From Myceligenerans pegani (GTDB lineage: Bacteria > Actinomycetota > Actinomycetes > Actinomycetales > Cellulomonadaceae): a stretch of DNA of 64,000 nt. This document shows positions 10,283 through 55,270 of this stretch, piece by piece; the stretch's first letter is position 1, and each line of letters starts with the position of its first letter. A program made the translations under genes and the position numbers. Below the pieces are notes generated by a model that was given only the letters and a program-made list of their open reading frames with translations, was not told where the DNA came from and made no database searches. Where the stretch lies: contig NZ_JADBGR010000046.1 of NCBI RefSeq assembly GCF_014892515.1, positions 1 through 64,000 of the forward strand. The letters are read 5' to 3'.

Positions 10283-10822
10283 TCAGTCCTCTTCGTCCGA
10301 GGTGGGGGCGCCCACGTCGTCCTGCGCGTAGGAGGCGCCCTCGAGGAAGCCCCGGGCCCGCTCCGTCTTCGGGTAGGCCTCGAGGATCTTCCAGAACGTC
10401 GGGCCGTGGCCCGCGTGCAGCAGGTGGGCGAGCTCGTGCAGCAGCACGTAGTCGAGGACCCAGCCGGGCATCCCCTGCACGCGCGTGGAGATCCGGATCG
10501 ACCCGTCCAGCAGGGTGCACGAGCCCCACCGCCGGCCCTGGTTCGACGCCCAGCGGACACTGGAGGGCACGGCCCGCCCGCCGAGATACTTGTCGGAGAG
10601 GAACTCCGCCCGGGACAGCAGTTCGTCGTCGGACGGTTTACGGCGCCGTTCCTTGTCCTCGAGCCGGGCGAGCATCTTGGCCACCCACTCTCGCTCCTGG
10701 GCCCTCGAGAAGCGCGCCGGAATGGCGACGATGGTTCGGTCACCGTCGCGATACGCGCTCACCGTGGCGGTACGACGACGGCTCCGGCGCACCTCCACGG
10801 ACGTCGGATCGTCGTGGGCCAC
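10283..10822 (-). CDS. YgjP/SprT-like metallopeptidase (M48-related)
   Basis: This 179-residue protein has zinc motif LLHELAHLLHAGHGPTFW (HExxH plus a third His) preceded by RWGSCTLLDGSIRIS, the standard WGSC element of the YgjP/DUF45 group. The GTG at 10822 is supported by a TACCGT -10 hexamer six bases upstream, which implies a leaderless transcript. It converges with the DUF2342 gene, 25 nt away. Its role is unassigned in most bacteria. Confidence 0.85.
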   Translation of the reverse strand: MAHDDPTSVEVRRSRRRTATVSAYRDGDRTIVAIPARFSRAQEREWVAKMLARLEDKERRRKPSDDELLSRAEFLSDKYLGGRAVPSSVRWASNQGRRWGSCTLLDGSIRISTRVQGMPGWVLDYVLLHELAHLLHAGHGPTFWKILEAYPKTERARGFLEGASYAQDDVGAPTSDEED

Positions 10823-10828
10823 ACCATG

Positions 10829-10834
10829 ACGGTA
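10829..10834 (-). promoter_or_regulatory. -10 box of a leaderless metallopeptidase mRNA
   Basis: TACCGT on the minus strand ends 6 nt before the GTG at 10822, leaving no room for a ribosome-binding site. Confidence 0.5.
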
Positions 10835-10996
10835 GCGGTTATCGGCGTGCGATGGTCAAGAACACGCCCTGCGACGGAAAAATTCTCCCGGGCGTCGAGG
10901 GCTCGTGGCGCGAGACGGCCTGTGGACAGACGGCAGCCTTCGCGAGGTCCTGGCACGGTGGAGTCTCTCCCTTCGCACCGCCCCAGGAGTACACCC

Positions 10997-12055
10997 ATGA
11001 GCGCGCCAGCCGCCCACCCTTCGCCGACCGCGTCGCGGTCCGCGCTCCGCCTGCGCCCCGGGACACCGGTGGTCATGCGCTCGGGCGGTGCGGTGCAGTG
11101 CGGCACCGACCCGCGCTGGGCGCTCGTCCTGGACGGGCTCTCCCGCGCGGAGGCGTCCTGGCTGCGCGACCTGACTGACCGCCGGCACGTGACGCCCGCC
11201 CGGTCCGCGGCACGTCGGGGCGTGGCCCCGGAGCGCCGGGACCTCATCCTGGACGTCCTGGCCAACGCGGGGATGCTGGTGCCGCCGTCGCCCGCCGGGC
11301 GAACCGTCGTCGCGCCGGGTGACGGGACGGCGGACGCCCGGACCCTCGGCATGCTACGGGTCGACGGGGCGGGCCTGGTCACTCTCGCGGACCGCGCGGC
11401 CGCCACGGTGGCGCTGGCCGGACTCGGACGCATCGGCGCGGCGCTCGCCCTGATCCTCTCCGCCGCCGGAGTGGGCCACCTGGTCCTGCGCGACCCGCGG
11501 CCGGTGCAGACCACCGACGTCGGGCTCGGCGCGCACACCGAGCACGACGTGGGCGAGCCCCGGGACGTCGCGCTGGCGCGCCTGCTGGCGAGCCGGACGC
11601 CGGCACTCGACGTCCGGGTGGACGGCGACGGCGAGCCGGACGTCGCCGTGGTCGTGGAGTCGCGTGCCGCCCTGCCCGCCCGGTTCACCCGCATGATGAG
11701 CGCGGCCGTACCGCACCTGTCCGTCGTCGCGCGCGAGGCGGATGTCACCGTGGGGCCGCTCGTCCTGCCGGGCCGCAGCGCCTGCGTCGGCTGCCTCGAC
11801 GCGCTCCGCGCCGATCAGGACCGCGACTGGCACCTGGTCGCGGCGCAGCTGCGGCAGGCACCGGAGCAGCCGCACGAGGCGGCGCTCACTGCCCTGGCAG
11901 CGGCGACGGCCGCCTGCCAGGTGCTCGCCCAACTGGACGGGCACCGGCCGGCGGCCGTCGGCACCTGCCTGGAGATCGCACTACCGGACTGCCTGCCTCG
12001 CGTCCGGAGGTTCGATCCGCATCCGCGGTGCGGATGCCTCACCCTCGCCCCCTGA
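10997..12055 (+). CDS. ThiF/E1-like protein with zinc-binding cysteines
   Basis: This 352-residue protein starts at ATG 10997 with an AGGAG site. The N-terminal half resembles the leader-binding regions of actinobacterial TOMM-type ThiF proteins (FGLD-like WALVLDGLSRAEASWL). A Rossmann segment follows (ALAGLGRIGAALALILSAAG then VGHLVLRDPRPVQTTDVG). SACVGCLDALR and a C-terminal RCGC supply four Cys for structural zinc, as in E1-like enzymes. No YcaO, dehydrogenase or precursor peptide is nearby. The gene lies between the metallopeptidase and whiB7, so it is probably a conserved stand-alone member and not part of a peptide-modifying cluster. Whether it still adenylates anything cannot be told. 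Confidence 0.72.
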   Translation: MSAPAAHPSPTASRSALRLRPGTPVVMRSGGAVQCGTDPRWALVLDGLSRAEASWLRDLTDRRHVTPARSAARRGVAPERRDLILDVLANAGMLVPPSPAGRTVVAPGDGTADARTLGMLRVDGAGLVTLADRAAATVALAGLGRIGAALALILSAAGVGHLVLRDPRPVQTTDVGLGAHTEHDVGEPRDVALARLLASRTPALDVRVDGDGEPDVAVVVESRAALPARFTRMMSAAVPHLSVVAREADVTVGPLVLPGRSACVGCLDALRADQDRDWHLVAAQLRQAPEQPHEAALTALAAATAACQVLAQLDGHRPAAVGTCLEIALPDCLPRVRRFDPHPRCGCLTLAP

Positions 12056-12065
12056 CGCCTGCGGG

Positions 12066-12455
12066 TCACGCGGCCGCCGGAGCTCCGCCGGCCGCAGCGG
12101 TCTCCGACTTCCGGGGCCGGCCACGACCGCGCTTGCGCGCGACGACGGCGCCGTCGACGAAGACCTCGCCGCCCCAGACACCCCAGGGCTCACGGCGCTC
12201 GAGGGCGCCGGCGAGGCAGCCGTCGATCAGCGGGCACTCGCGGCAGAGCGTCTTCGCGCGCTCCACCTCGGCGGAGTGCTCGGCGAACCAGAGCTCGGGG
12301 TCGTTGGTACGGCACGGGAGCAGCGAGTCCATGATCCGGTTGAACTCGCGGGTGTCAGAGCCGCTTGTGGCAGCGCTGGCGGGAACATCGCTCGAAGGGT
12401 TCCAGGGGCCGGATCCGCCCTGGGGGAGGGTGTCGAGGAGCGCAGTGAGGCGCAC
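12066..12455 (-). CDS. whiB7: WhiB7-type iron-sulfur transcription regulator
   Basis: This 129-residue protein carries four cluster-binding Cys (48, 71, 74, 80), the WhiB turn GVWGGE (92-97) and a C-terminal AT-hook RGRGRP (109-114), which is diagnostic of WhiB7/WblC. WhiB7 binds the principal sigma factor and an AT-rich element upstream of the -35 box to switch on intrinsic antibiotic resistance genes. The GTG start at 12455 has a GGAGA site. It is preceded by a leader of over 400 nt with an upstream ORF and a terminator (see those entries). The uvrD2 gene lies further upstream on the same strand, as in mycobacteria. Confidence 0.93.
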   Translation of the reverse strand: MRLTALLDTLPQGGSGPWNPSSDVPASAATSGSDTREFNRIMDSLLPCRTNDPELWFAEHSAEVERAKTLCRECPLIDGCLAGALERREPWGVWGGEVFVDGAVVARKRGRGRPRKSETAAAGGAPAAA

Positions 12456-12566
12456 GGTTGTCTCCTGTGATCCTGTTACGTGAACGTCGTCGGTGAACGT
12501 CGGGTGATGCAGGACCCAGGGCTGGGTGTTCCTCCAGCCGGCCTGGTGAGGCCGGGATCTGCCTGG

Positions 12567-12608
12567 AAAAACCTCAGGCCGCGGGTCCCGGGTGGACTCC
12601 GCGGCCTG
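12567..12608 (-). terminator. Intrinsic terminator (attenuator) in the whiB7 leader
   Basis: On the minus strand a perfect 10-bp stem (12599-12608 with 12575-12584) encloses a 14-nt loop and runs straight into TTTTT (12567-12571). It sits between the upstream ORF and whiB7, about 112 nt before the start codon, so read-through is needed for expression. Confidence 0.85.
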
Positions 12609-12653
12609 GATGCGCCGGTCGATCTAGACCGGATGCGCTCCTGAAGCGGAGTC
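12595..12653 (-). promoter_or_regulatory. Competing structures between upstream ORF and attenuator
   Basis: Two alternatives can form ahead of the terminator. Hairpin A pairs CCGGTC with GACCGG (12615-12632) and contains the stop codon of the upstream ORF. A longer-range pairing joins GACTCCGC in the ORF tail (12646-12653) to GCGGAGTC (12595-12602). The latter covers the last four bases of the terminator's 5' arm and would act as an antiterminator. Which one wins could depend on where ribosomes sit on the upstream ORF. Confidence 0.55.
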
Positions 12654-12815
12654 GGGGGCGAGGATGGCGTTCGGGAAGCTTCCGCCTTCGCCGCGCAGAC
12701 GCGGCGTGTGGACAGAGATATCCGCGCGCGCAGAGACGGGCCGGACCGCGTACGACGGCACACCGGTGCCGCACAGCGTCTCCGTCCACGTCTGGACCTG
12801 CTTCATGATCTCCAT
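12624..12815 (-). CDS. Upstream ORF in the whiB7 leader (candidate sensor peptide)
   Basis: This 63-codon frame starts at ATG 12815 (MEIMKQVQTWTETLCGTGVP) with a GAGGAGG site 11-12 nt upstream. It ends at a TAG inside hairpin A, just before the attenuator. Known actinobacterial whiB7/wblC genes are controlled by leader ORFs whose stalled or slowed translation, caused by ribosome-targeting drugs, prevents termination. Position, ribosome-binding site and the structures around its stop fit that role. The peptide itself shows no domain. Confidence 0.6.
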   Translation of the reverse strand: MEIMKQVQTWTETLCGTGVPSYAVRPVSARADISVHTPRLRGEGGSFPNAILAPDSASGAHPV

Positions 12816-12888
12816 CAGGCTTCCCACCTCCTCGCGCACTCGGGGCTCGGCCTTCTCGGCTCCGCCCGCTCTTTCAAGGACAACATGC

Positions 12889-12926
12889 AGACTATGTCGC
12901 CTGCCTCGCGGACTCCAACTCTTTTT
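12889..12926 (-). promoter_or_regulatory. whiB7 promoter with AT-rich WhiB7-type element
   Basis: On the minus strand GGAAAAAGAG lies directly upstream of a TTGGAG -35 (12913-12918). A TAGTCT -10 (12889-12894) follows after 18 nt. An A-tract next to the -35 box is the known signature of promoters activated by WhiB7, so autoregulation is likely. A second A-tract lies at 12931-12940. Confidence 0.6.
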
Positions 12927-13014
12927 CCAACTTTTTTTGCTGACAGTTTTCCGGGATCCGTCAAGGCTCGATGAAAGCGCTGTCCAGCCTGGGTCTCCCG
13001 GAATTCTTCGGGCT

Positions 13015-15072
13015 TCAGACACTCGGCGCGCTGCTCACGATCGACAGGATCGTCGGCCCGTAGCGGTCGATCTTCCCCGGGCCGATCCCGTTGACCCGCG
13101 CCAGCTCGGCGACCGAGCCGGGCCTCGACTCGGCGATCTCGGCCAGGCTCGCGTCCGTGAGGATCGTGTAGGCGGGCTTGTCGGCCTCCTGCGCCACCTC
13201 CAGGCGCCACTCGCGCAGCGCGTCGAAGAGCGCGACGTCGTGCTCGCCCGTCAGCAACGCCCGGGCCTTCCCCTGGCCGCCGCGGGGGCGGCGGGGACCA
13301 CGCGGCTCGCCGTCGGGCCAGATGCCGTCGAGAAAGCGGGTGCGCTTCCGGGTGGCCCGCCCGCCGGGGTTGCGGCTGCGCGCGAAGGACACCTCCAGCC
13401 GCTCCCGAGCCCGCGTGATCCCCACGTAGAGCAGGCGGCGCTCCTCGTGCACGGCCTCGTCGGTCTCGGCCAGGGAGATCGGCATGAGGCCCTCGCTCAT
13501 CCCGGCCAGGAACACTGCGTCCCACTCCAGACCCTTCGCCGCGTGCAACGACGCCAGCGTCACGCCCTCGACCGTGGGCGCGTGCTGCGCCTTGGCCCGC
13601 TCGGTGAGCTCGTCCACGAGAGTCGCGATCGTCGCAGGCGCCTCCTCGGTCGCCGACGCGGCCAGGTCGTCCGCGAGCGCCACGAGCGCCTGCATCGAGT
13701 CCCAGCGTTCGCGTGCGGCGCCGCGGGCGGCGGGGGGTTCGGCGGCCCATCCGGCGGCGGCGAGGACGTCGCGCACCTGTTCGGGCATGGTCTGTTCCGG
13801 GTCGGCGGAGCGGGCGGCGCCGCGGAGCAGGACGATGGCGTCGCGCACCTCCTTGCGCTGGAAGAAGCGTTCGCCGCCGCGCACGAGGTAGCCGACGCCG
13901 GCGTCGGCGAACGCGGACTCGAATGCCTCGGACTGCGCGTTTGTGCGGTAGAGGACGGCGATCTCGCTGGCGGGGACGCCCGATTCGATGAGCCGGGAGG
14001 CCCGGGTGGCGATAGCGGTGGCCTCGGTCTCGTCGTCGTCGTGGGTGGTGAAGGTGACGGGCGGCCCGGGATCGCGCTGGGCGACGAGTTCGAGCGCCTG
14101 TGCGGCGCCGCGGCCGGCGCGGCGCAGGAGGTCGTTGGCGAGGCCGACGACCTGCGGTGTGGACCGGTAGTCGCGGACGAGGCGGATCTCGGTGGCGTTC
14201 CGGAAGCGGCGCCGGAAGTCGAGCAGGTAGCGCGGGGTGGCGCCGGTGAAGGAGTAGATGGTCTGGGACGGGTCGCCGACGACGCACAGTTCCTCGCGGC
14301 CGCCGAGCCACTGGTCGAGCAGGAACTGCTGGAGAGGTGAGACGTCCTGGTACTCGTCGACGACGAAGTGCCGGTACTGACCTCGGACCTCGTCGGCGAT
14401 GGCCTTGTGGCTGTTCAGCATGTCGGAGAGCATGAGGAGGACGTCTTCGAAGTCGATGGCGTCGCGCTCGGTCTTGACGTCCTCGTACATGGTGATCAGG
14501 CGCGCGATCGTCTGGTGGTCGTAGCCCGACGGTGCCTCGCGGTCGCGGGCGGCGGCGACGCGCTCGTAGTCGTCGGCCGTGACGAGGCTGACCTTGGCCC
14601 ACTCGACCTCCGAGGACAGGTCACGCACGGCGACACGGTCGACGGAGAGCCCGAGCCGCCGGGCGGACTCGGCGACGAACTGTGCCTTGTGCTCGACCAG
14701 GCGGGGCGGCGCCCCGCCGACGACGCGCGGCCAGAAGTACGCCAGCTGGCGCAGTGCGGCGGCGTGGAAGGTGCGTGCCTGCACGCCCTGCACGCCGAGG
14801 CCGCGCAGGCGGGTGCGCATCTCCCCCGCCGCGCGGGCCGTGAAGGTGACCGCCAGGACGCTGTTCGGCTTGTAGACGCCGGTGCGCACGCCGTAGGCGA
14901 TGCGGTGGGTGAGGGCACGGGTCTTGCCGGTGCCGGCCCCGGCGAGCACGCAGACCGGCCCCCGCAGCGCGAGCGCCACCTCTCGCTGCTCGGGGTCGAG
15001 CGCGTCGAGGATCGAGTCGGGATGAACGGGACCCGTCGCGGAGTTGGAGAGAGCAGGCGCGTGCGTCACCAT
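13015..15072 (-). CDS. uvrD2: UvrD2-type superfamily 1 DNA helicase with HRDC domain
   Basis: This protein of about 685 residues starts at ATG 15072; GTG 15069 is also possible. Walker A is AGAGTGKTRALTHR (43-56), Walker B is FVVDEYQDVSPLQQ, and motif VI lies in LLYVGITRARERLEV. The last 75 residues (DVALFDALREWRLEVAQEAD then ELARVNGIGPGKIDRYG) are an HRDC domain. This is the architecture of mycobacterial UvrD2, a 3'-5' helicase. The tetracysteine module that I recall between motor and HRDC in mycobacteria is absent: the linker (PDGEPRGPRRPRGGQGKARA) has no Cys. It is divergent from mycoredoxin and lies upstream of the whiB7 leader, as in Mycobacterium. Confidence 0.9.
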   Translation of the reverse strand: MVTHAPALSNSATGPVHPDSILDALDPEQREVALALRGPVCVLAGAGTGKTRALTHRIAYGVRTGVYKPNSVLAVTFTARAAGEMRTRLRGLGVQGVQARTFHAAALRQLAYFWPRVVGGAPPRLVEHKAQFVAESARRLGLSVDRVAVRDLSSEVEWAKVSLVTADDYERVAAARDREAPSGYDHQTIARLITMYEDVKTERDAIDFEDVLLMLSDMLNSHKAIADEVRGQYRHFVVDEYQDVSPLQQFLLDQWLGGREELCVVGDPSQTIYSFTGATPRYLLDFRRRFRNATEIRLVRDYRSTPQVVGLANDLLRRAGRGAAQALELVAQRDPGPPVTFTTHDDDETEATAIATRASRLIESGVPASEIAVLYRTNAQSEAFESAFADAGVGYLVRGGERFFQRKEVRDAIVLLRGAARSADPEQTMPEQVRDVLAAAGWAAEPPAARGAARERWDSMQALVALADDLAASATEEAPATIATLVDELTERAKAQHAPTVEGVTLASLHAAKGLEWDAVFLAGMSEGLMPISLAETDEAVHEERRLLYVGITRARERLEVSFARSRNPGGRATRKRTRFLDGIWPDGEPRGPRRPRGGQGKARALLTGEHDVALFDALREWRLEVAQEADKPAYTILTDASLAEIAESRPGSVAELARVNGIGPGKIDRYGPTILSIVSSAPSV

Positions 15073-15169
15073 GGCCGAGATTCTGTCAGGAGACACCGAC
15101 ATCGACGACAGCACCGGCGGCGGCGCTCGCGACCGCCGTCGTGCAGCGTGCCGTGAAGGAGACGAAGAG

Positions 15170-15445
15170 ATGACCGAGATCGCCACGCCGGTCCCCGCGT
15201 CGGGGACCGTCCTCATGTACTCGACCGCGTGGTGCGGGTACTGCCGTCGGCTGCGGACGCAGCTCGACTCGGAGGGCATCGGCTACGAGGTGATCGACAT
15301 CGAGGAGCGTCCGGAGACGGCGGCGTTCGTCGAGAACGTCAACGGCGGGAACCGCACGGTGCCGACGGTGGTCTACCCGAACGGCTCGGCGGCGACGAAC
15401 CCGTCGCTGGCCGACGTGAAGCAGGCGCTGGCGCTCTCGAACTGA
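15170..15445 (+). CDS. mrx1: Mycoredoxin (glutaredoxin-fold mycothiol redoxin)
   Basis: This 91-residue protein starts at ATG 15170 after an AAGGAG site. The active site is WCGYC (Cys 22 and 25), with a cis-Pro loop TVPTVVYPNGS typical of glutaredoxins. In actinobacteria it reduces mycothiol mixed disulfides on proteins. The uvrD2-mrx1-nudC neighbourhood matches mycobacterial mrx1. It converges with nudC, 11 nt away. Confidence 0.9.
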   Translation: MTEIATPVPASGTVLMYSTAWCGYCRRLRTQLDSEGIGYEVIDIEERPETAAFVENVNGGNRTVPTVVYPNGSAATNPSLADVKQALALSN

Positions 15446-53691: not shown

Positions 53692-53761
53692 GGGCAGCAG
53701 CGGTGGGCGGAAGGGGCTCGCTCGCCGCGCTCCACCGCGCCGATCAGCGGCTGATACGCTT

Positions 53762-53880
53762 TCCGCGTCGCGACTGGCGCCAGCCGGCCGGGCCTCCGCG
53801 AGGCACGGTGGGACGAGGTGGAGCAACCACCGGGGAGCGACGTACTGTGCCGACGACGGGTCGTTCGCCTGGGCCCGGGG
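53762..53880 (+). promoter_or_regulatory. ZTP (pfl) riboswitch ahead of glyA-folD
   Basis: The conserved blocks of the ZTP aptamer appear in order: GTCGCGACTGGCG (53767-53779), a variable hairpin, CACCGGGGAGCGAC (53828-53841), a linker hairpin, and CGCCTGGGC (53866-53874). ZTP/ZMP riboswitches sense shortage of 10-formyl-tetrahydrofolate and turn on folate and one-carbon genes; glyA and folD are classic targets. About 97 nt then separate the aptamer from ATG 53978. They include a CACCTC-GC-AGGAGGTG hairpin (53882-53897) and the GAGGAG ribosome-binding site. The expression platform is not obvious. Confidence 0.88.
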
Positions 53881-53977
53881 TCACCTCGCAGGAGGTGCAC
53901 GCCCCGCCCGGTTGCCGGTCGCGGTGGCGGACCCGACGCGAGACCTGTGTCAGTCCAGCCAGAATCGAGGAGACGCA

Positions 53978-55270
53978 ATGAGCGCTCAGACTCCCGACCT
54001 TCCCGCCGACGTGATGAACGCGCCGCTCGCGCAGGTGGACCCCGAGATCGCCGCCGTGCTCGACGGCGAGCTGGCCCGCCAGCGCGACACGCTCGAGATG
54101 ATCGCGTCGGAGAACTTCGTCCCCGCCGCCGTGCTCGAGGCGCAGGGGTCGGTCCTGACGAACAAGTACGCCGAGGGCTATCCCGGCAAGCGCTACTACG
54201 GCGGCTGCGAGCAGGTGGACATCGCCGAGAACCTCGCCAAGGACCGCGCCCGGGCCCTGTTCGGCGCCGAGCACGTGAACGTCCAGCCGCACTCGGGCGC
54301 GCAGGCCAACGCGGCCGTGCTGCACGCGCTGATCCGCCCGGGCGACCGGATCCTGGGCCTCGAGCTCGCGCACGGCGGCCACCTCACGCACGGCATGAAG
54401 ATCAACTTCTCCGGCCGGCTGTACGACGTCGCCGGGTACGGCGTCGACCCCACCACCTACCGCATCGACATGGACGCCGTCCGCAAGGCGGCCCTGGAGC
54501 ACCGGCCGGACGTCATCATCGCCGGCTGGTCCGCCTACCCCCGCCAGCTCGACTTCCCCGCGTTCCGCGAGATCGCGGACGAGGTGGGGGCCAAGCTGTG
54601 GGTCGACATGGCGCACTTCGCCGGCCTCGTGGCCGCCGGCCTGCACCCGTCGCCGGTGCCGCACGCGGACGTGACGTCGTCGACCGTGCACAAGACCATC
54701 GGCGGCCCGCGCTCCGGCTTCATCCTGACGCGCGAGGAGTACGCGAAGAAGATCGACTCGGCGGTGTTCCCGGGCCAGCAAGGCGGCCCGCTCATGCACG
54801 TCATCGCGGCCAAGGCCGTCGCGTTCAAGATCGCGGCCTCCGAGGGCTTCACGGAGCGGCAGGAGCGGACCGTGCGGGGCGCGAAGATCATCGCGGACCG
54901 GCTCGCGCAGCCCGACGTGGCCGACGCCGGCGTCTCCGTGCTGACGGGCGGCACGGACGTGCATCTCACGCTGGTGGACCTGCGCGACTCCCAGCTCGAC
55001 GGCCAGCAGGCCGAGGACCTGCTGCACGACGCCGGGATCACCGTGAACCGCAACGCCGTGCCGTTCGACCCGCGCCCGCCGCGCGTCACCTCCGGCCTAC
55101 GGATCGGCACGCCGGCGCTGGCCACGCGCGGCTTCGGGGACACGGAGTTCACCGAGGTGGCGGACATCATCGCCACGGCGCTCAAGGACGGCGCGACGGC
55201 CGACGTCGACGCGCTGGCCGCCCGCGTCGCGAAGCTCACGGCGGACTTCCCGCTCTACCCGAACCTCTGA
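53978..55270 (+). CDS. glyA: Serine hydroxymethyltransferase
   Basis: This 430-residue protein starts at ATG 53978 with a GAGGAG site. It has [28 protein letters not shown] and the PLP-lysine motif [20 protein letters not shown], all invariant in bacterial SHMT, plus [18 protein letters not shown]. It interconverts serine and glycine and loads methylene-tetrahydrofolate. It is first in an operon with folD (9-nt gap) under the ZTP riboswitch. Confidence 0.97.

Follow-up and report, generated by a model that had tools for sequence, protein, structure and literature searches.

How a leader sets the expression of whiB7, a gene that in actinobacteria controls intrinsic resistance to many ribosome-targeting drugs, and whether the 63-codon upstream open reading frame (uORF) within such a leader acts through its peptide or through the ribosomes travelling along it, are the questions raised by this locus of the window (the whole stretch of 64,000 nucleotides analysed here). 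The gene itself (12066-12455, minus strand, GTG start at 12455) encodes a protein with a WhiB domain (Pfam Whib, 59.2 bits with a cut-off of 23.6) and a C-terminal AT-hook (Pfam AT_hook, residues 108-119, RGRGRPRK), the latter at 17.4 bits, which is exactly the gathering score of 17.4. Four cysteines and GVWGG are visible in the translation; four cysteines with a GVWGG turn are the hallmark of the WhiB Fe-S domain. An NCBIfam profile search assigned the product to no family at E<=1. The nearest named WhiB7 proteins are those of Promicromonospora (81% and 80%), and a WhiB7 match at E<=1e-20 was present in 142 of the 150 genomes of the family. The gene that adjoins whiB7 upstream (13015-15279, minus strand) encodes, according to Pfam, a UvrD-like helicase that includes an HRDC domain; in mycobacteria a uvrD2 gene likewise neighbours whiB7. 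A gene for a ThiF-family protein (10964-12055, plus strand) also adjoins whiB7, and one for a YgjP-like metallopeptidase (10283-10822, minus strand) lies near it, while elsewhere in the window a ZMP-ZTP riboswitch (42.6 bits, 53760-53881, plus strand) is found immediately upstream of a frame (53912-55270) that was labelled glyA-like from its translation by eye. All four own-genus genomes (L002, which is the genome analysed here, L009, L010 and L011) carry a further WhiB7-like gene, whose product has a tail resembling an AT-hook; a -10-like TACCTAGT stands a few bases upstream of the ATG, and the gene is apparently leaderless, no leader with Shine-Dalgarno (SD) sequence, uORF and terminator being seen before it by eye in these four genomes. 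Genomes that we take for Promicromonospora likewise carry two WhiB matches.

The preliminary description saw in the leader a complete uORF attenuator of whiB7, a claim that is backed by the anatomy of the region, its predicted folding and compensatory changes in relatives. The leader contains the elements of such a switch, these are conserved, some of them have changed in a compensatory manner, and the predicted folds are mutually exclusive. As far as the accessible parts of the papers go, uORF-mediated attenuation of whiB7/wblC has been called typical of actinobacterial whiB7 genes (PMC10727445), the same mechanism is described in three further reports (PMC11550727, PMC9618640, PMC13393426), and a mycobacterial whiB7 uORF and terminator were described with attenuation proposed (Dinan 2014, PMC4128351). 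Since the mechanism is published for whiB7/wblC, the attenuator interpretation is not new in kind, and it is almost certainly right. The wblC (whiB7) uORF attenuator of Streptomyces coelicolor was reportedly treated by Lee, Lee and Roe in 2022 (Mol Microbiol, doi 10.1111/mmi.14834), and the whiB7 leader of mycobacteria reportedly by Burian and Thompson in 2018; no paper combining whiB7 and Promicromonospora was found in the collection searched. We consider it very probable that in this soil-type, Promicromonospora-like actinobacterium the leader acts as a transcription attenuator of whiB7, with ribosome transit on the uORF deciding read-through.

The comparisons below draw on 131 family loci, made up of the leaders of 110 of the 142 matching genomes and those 21 of 80 named loci in a genome collection that were treated as family. 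Setting aside 10 loci without the motif and 13 identical to others gave 108 distinct switch regions; a rule requiring an SD and a start was satisfied in 104 of the 131 loci, of which 82 non-redundant leaders were kept. On the minus strand, the leader is preceded by a promoter-like site with the A-tract that had been claimed. GAAAAA (12922-12927) stands 3 nt upstream of a -35-like TTGGAG (12913-12918, read directly), which is followed at 18 nt by a -10-like TAGTCT (12889-12894; TANNNT), the match of the -35 and -10 being weak, and transcription probably starts near 12882. GAAAAA has five of the six letters of the WblC box GAAAWY at the published spacing, 3 bases upstream of the -35 according to a figure legend (PMC7157823). 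The T, the A and the last T of the -10 are each at least 90% conserved across 74 aligned leaders. An E. coli-type consensus scan of 12400-13050 called neither a promoter nor a terminator.

Between the probable transcription start and the SD of the uORF lies a 5'-UTR hairpin, GGGC-GCC-GAGAA-GGC-GCCC (12843-12867, minus strand), which to judge from the aligned leaders appears to be a further, covarying element. In alignment A1 (74 of the 82 leaders, with L042, L131, L162, L173, L176, L177, L178 and L198 left out by eye, a choice that may favour the hairpin), both-sided changes fell in 67 cells, compared with 27.6 +/- 3.9 in shuffled alignments (0 of 500 reaching the observed value) and 7-25 in slid versions of the hairpin, although the latter comparison favours the hairpin, its structure having been predicted from A1 itself. 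Paired cells made up 83.6%, versus 66.1% in shuffles. All five predicted pairs show both-sided change, a count that is unremarkable since 78 of 500 shuffles also reach five. The hairpin of Streptomyces at the corresponding place differs from that of the window, and there the SD lies between CGCC and GGCG (both by eye). In the accessible portions of the whiB7/wblC literature searched we found no description of the window's hairpin, and we do not claim it as unpublished. Functionally, the hairpin, together in Streptomyces with a small stem that contains the SD, would set the frequency of ribosome loading.

The leader ORF with ribosome-binding site had been correctly recognised. A strong SD, AGGAGGT (12826-12832, minus strand; its GAGG is invariant in the 74 aligned leaders), precedes a uORF of 63 codons and a stop (12624-12815, minus strand; ATG at 12815, TAG at 12624), which would encode MEIMKQVQ...APDSASGAHPV, so that an SD-preceded uORF is found between promoter and whiB7 as in other whiB7/wblC attenuators. 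The peptide matched nothing in NCBIfam at E<=1 or in Pfam at E<=0.01. Its description as longer than simple leader peptides does not set it apart, since 63 codons is mid-range among whiB7/wblC uORFs: the length was 23-97 codons in the 89 of 108 leaders in which the length rule found a uORF, where the minimum of 23 is probably a start-picking error (likely L131, with 51 codons by another rule) and the next-shortest has 34, and it was 100-108 codons in Streptomyces (n=29).

The switch itself includes a hairpin around the uORF stop, as had been proposed: a CCGGTC/GACCGG stem holds the UAG in its loop (CCGGTC-TAGATC-GACCGG, 12615-12632, minus strand, arms 12632-12627 with 12620-12615). The alternative pairing that was said to disrupt the terminator is equally present, as an 8-bp antiterminator between a 5' arm inside the uORF, GACTCCGC (12646-12653, minus strand), and its complement GCGGAGTC (12595-12602, minus strand), which overlaps the terminator 5' arm; uORF sequence would thereby pair with the terminator 5' arm, as in an attenuator. 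The U-tailed terminator was only partly borne out: from the sequence and its predicted fold there is a 14-bp hairpin with a 5-nt loop and one bulge (12575-12608, minus strand), but the U tail is weak, with a run of five T (12567-12571, minus strand) that starts 3 nt (AGG) after the stem, about 110 bases before the whiB7 GTG. Relatives, by eye, likewise have broken U tails. An Rfam search of the leader returned no family at the gathering threshold; two matches at E<=1, to a microRNA and a snoRNA family, lay far below that threshold and were rejected as chance.

In predicted folds, the 141-nt 3' part of the leader reaches -62 kcal/mol (z = -3.34), a stability attained by 0 of 200 shuffles. An RNA that ends in the terminator loop adopts the GACUCCGC:GCGGAGUC antiterminator with the stop hairpin inside it (-33.3), while the full RNA prefers the terminator (-49.5, versus -42.7 with the antiterminator forced). 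With the end of the uORF masked up to 12612 to mimic a ribosome, the predicted fold contains the terminator. The footprint of a terminating ribosome would cover the stop hairpin but not quite reach the antiterminator 5' arm, which makes the masking step a presumed one.

The same alternation is predicted across the relatives. Among the 104 of 108 leaders used for fold counts, the nascent RNA folds the antiterminator in 98 (4% with the arm shuffled) and lacks it in 6, and the full RNA folds the terminator in 96, with the antiterminator persisting in 7. When leaders are searched for the 8-mer that best complements the terminator core, the score is 7.8/8 or more in 82 of the 108 distinct leaders and in 1.5% of shuffles; picking the arm as the best complement makes such counts lean to pairing, for which this shuffle control allows. 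A perfect hairpin with a stem of at least 5 lies between the arms in 89 of the 95 leaders counted, where mononucleotide shuffles would give 14.7; that the stop falls within the loop of the relatives' hairpins was seen by eye and left uncounted. These figures bear on the sceptical view that a G+C-rich strand of about 320 nt merely happens to hold an ORF and hairpins. ORFs are indeed cheap here, with 48 of at least 20 aa in 10500-15000, but the layout is common to about 100 distinct leaders, the shuffle controls stand at 1.5% and 4%, and each of the four own-genus genomes has the exact terminator motif a single time; conservation already refutes chance as an explanation, and we give it a negligible probability.

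Covariation among relatives, which had been suggested as a check on the three pairings, gave a divided answer: some compensatory changes exist, but the arms hardly vary. In alignment A2 (56 of the 82 leaders, chosen by eye), 24 columns are invariant, 20 of them within the terminator and the other 4 within the antiterminator 5' arm, an almost frozen switch that fits a strand obliged to pair with two partners. RNAalifold on A2 showed both-sided change at 0 of 10 terminator pairs and saw the terminator as the only structure, because MAFFT splits the stop hairpins; the tighter alignment A4 (57 distinct leaders with an arm spacing of 50-55) was then used. There, both-sided changes in the whole structure fell in 23 cells (7.4 +/- 2.3 shuffled, 5-10 in slid controls), although 87.1% of cells are paired, hardly more than the 84.7% of shuffles. 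The antiterminator helix of A4 is paired in 98.9% of cells, with both-sided change at 2 of 8 pairs (5 cells, about 2 lineages), and, in MAFFT's alignment, pairs of the stop hairpin are intact in 41-78% of cells. Individual leaders illustrate the coupling: L140, L143 and L148 carry GACTCCAC/GTGGAGTC with a matching terminator GGCCGTGG...CCACGGCC, antiterminator and terminator having changed together, and AGCTCCG/CGGAGCC has likewise changed together in L118 and L119.

The frame of the uORF is tied to the same switch. With SD and start picked mechanically, which was achieved in 87 of 108 leaders, the first stop falls no more than 60 nt upstream of GCGGAGTC in 76 of 87; the shifted frames give 4 of 83 and 11 of 72. 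Eleven of the 87 frames picked by this rule stop early; nine of them are start-picking errors in which another start reaches the switch, leaving L140 and L148 as real exceptions. Both carry two short ORFs in place of a single uORF: the stop of the first and the ATG of the second share an ATGA, and the second ORF continues into the switch (that of L148 was read by eye from the sequence). In 66 of 89 leaders the stop follows the antiterminator arm at a distance of 27 or 30 bases. A second layout, with 7-16 bases counted from the first base of the arm and another frame, is seen in L036, L037, L153, L169, L178, L183, L193, L201 and L205, where a terminating ribosome would sit on the antiterminator arm itself. 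GC is highest at the third codon position in 80 of 81 uORFs (last 15 codons dropped) and follows the order 3>1>2 in 60 of 81, which is the signature of translated genes in such genomes. Shuffling the ORF body was a weak control, the stop still falling between the arms in 38.9% (frame kept) or 16.3% (random frame) of cases.

This arrangement also weighs on a different kind of regulation, of Rho or small-RNA type, in which the terminated leader RNA would be the regulator and the uORF incidental. An abundant terminated leader is to be expected here, and the U run of the terminator is weak, both of which would suit it. Nevertheless, the frame mostly ends at a fixed place relative to the arms, codon-position GC in the uORFs is that of translated genes, and changes in the antiterminator are accompanied by changes in the terminator; as a free small RNA needs none of these, we regard it as very unlikely.

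For the attenuator, the following course of events can be proposed. RNA polymerase would start near 12882 and make the leader. If the ribosome passes freely, its arrival at the stop codon would prevent the stop hairpin from closing and keep the flanking segments separate; with the antiterminator thereby blocked, the terminator (12608-12575) would form, and transcription would stop near 12567. If, on the other hand, a drug or a shortage of charged tRNA slows or halts the ribosome anywhere before the last ~10 codons, GACUCCGC would pair with GCGGAGUC in an extended hairpin, which the stop hairpin holds together; this would use up the terminator 5' arm, polymerase would read into whiB7, and WhiB7 would then boost its own promoter. 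The roles of the ribosome as sensor, of drugs and starvation as inducers and of WhiB7 as its own regulator in this host are put forward as probable.

Known systems agree with this arrangement in layout and differ in detail. In the accessible part of its description, S. coelicolor wblC has, like the window, a uORF with a strong SD, an antiterminator formed from uORF and terminator sequences, and a terminator upstream of whiB7. The Streptomyces leaders that we fetched share the layout of the window by eye, but their uORFs have 100-108 codons instead of 63 and their antiterminator arm contains TTCCGTGG (by eye) where the window has GACTCCGC. The part of the mycobacterial report at hand places a uORF about 10 nt after the SD and a terminator, with a T-rich tail, in the whiB7 leader (PMC4128351), much as in the window, whose U tail is weak. 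Leaders of Streptomyces, Mycobacterium and Rhodococcus have the window's layout in other letters, for example GTCCGTGG/CCACGGAC (by eye); in M. palustre, GTCCGTGG/CCACGGAC stand around the uORF end like the arms of the window, and the uORF is shorter (49 codons) and apparently alanine-rich (all by eye), whereas the family uORFs have alanine at background (0.144 vs 0.144).

What remains is the second question, whether the peptide matters. The preliminary description suggested that the sequence of the uORF may determine which antibiotics are sensed and proposed peptide conservation as a check, and this suggestion found no support: per site, amino-acid changes are about as frequent as synonymous ones in seven clades. 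By clade, pN/pS for the uORF was 0.81-0.98 in six and 2.05 in one. With the last 18 codons dropped, because the RNA switch constrains the letters there, the pooled pN/pS was 0.97 (bootstrap 0.81-1.17), which lacks the purifying selection expected of an erm-type arrest leader. The identical method gave 0.06-0.23 for whiB7 in nearly the same sequences, while shifted frames gave 0.65-2.73, overlapping the in-frame range of 0.81-2.05. These ratios come from pairwise counting in related sequences with clade labels that we assigned by sequence similarity, and RNA constraint may slow silent sites too; a control with the upstream gene (0.62-0.94) was unusable, the longest open frame having been taken, often possibly the wrong one. 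Sequence comparison thus detects no amino-acid-specific constraint on the uORF peptide, and the conserved C-terminal PDS motif is the antiterminator arm in frame (GAC TCC), so that no peptide signal is needed for it. As for the coding conservation on which the preliminary description had staked its case, it extends to the open frame, its start, the position of its stop and its codon-position GC, but not detectably to the peptide sequence.

The contrary proposal is that the leader encodes an erm-like, drug-dependent arrest peptide whose residue pattern sets the drug spectrum. Such erm leaders exist, as cited in the consulted part of PMC4128351, and in all four own-genus species the uORF peptide is similar, with pS at 0.208 and pN at 0.087 in its first third. 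For the own genus alone (four sequences), pN/pS was 0.60 with a wide range (0.23-1.94; last 18 codons dropped), and variable columns numbered 8, 7 and 6 by codon position, with few changes and no third-position excess. Apart from the pooled ratio, its overlap with shifted frames and the far lower values of whiB7, the proposal is countered by uORF lengths that range over the 89 leaders as given above and by the 9 of 76 leaders in which the antiterminator arm differs in its place and frame with respect to the stop. An arrest peptide is therefore improbable in our estimate. Whether antibiotics stall ribosomes within the whiB7 uORF is stated, in the available text of PMC12121999, as not yet tested.

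Compared with 32 long ORFs of the window, the 81 family uORFs are raised in Asn, Lys, Ile and Thr and lowered in Glu, Asp and Leu, with Glu at 0.32 of background; one idea is that low Glu may reflect avoidance of GAG codons able to pair with the CUCC of the antiterminator arm. Amino-acid sensing was considered and set aside, as composition yielded no readable signal from which start-region effects and RNA constraint could be separated. According to the part of PMC13236596 available, the ilvB1 attenuator of M. tuberculosis and other amino-acid attenuators likewise let the ribosome's position on a uORF pick terminator or antiterminator, but in those the signal comes from regulatory codons for one group of amino acids, and the family composition here shows no such readable signal.

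We conclude that the uORF is probably a gauge of ribosome transit and not the code for a drug-specific arrest peptide, and that most likely the peptide is irrelevant while ORF length, frame and stop position count. Taken as a whole, with the 5' hairpin included as the loading element, the reading of the uORF as a peptide-blind meter of ribosome transit is one towards which we lean, if only slightly. Selection would then keep a well-translated frame of some tens of codons that ends at a fixed switch point, and the amino acids would drift like silent sites. If this is true, what senses the drugs would be pictured no longer as a peptide recognising them but as a stretch of translation that is disturbed by any slowing, and the transit meter would explain why whiB7 is induced by so many drug classes and by amino-acid shortage; the absence of detectable peptide-level constraint in seven clades makes such multi-drug sensing testable with a recoded leader.
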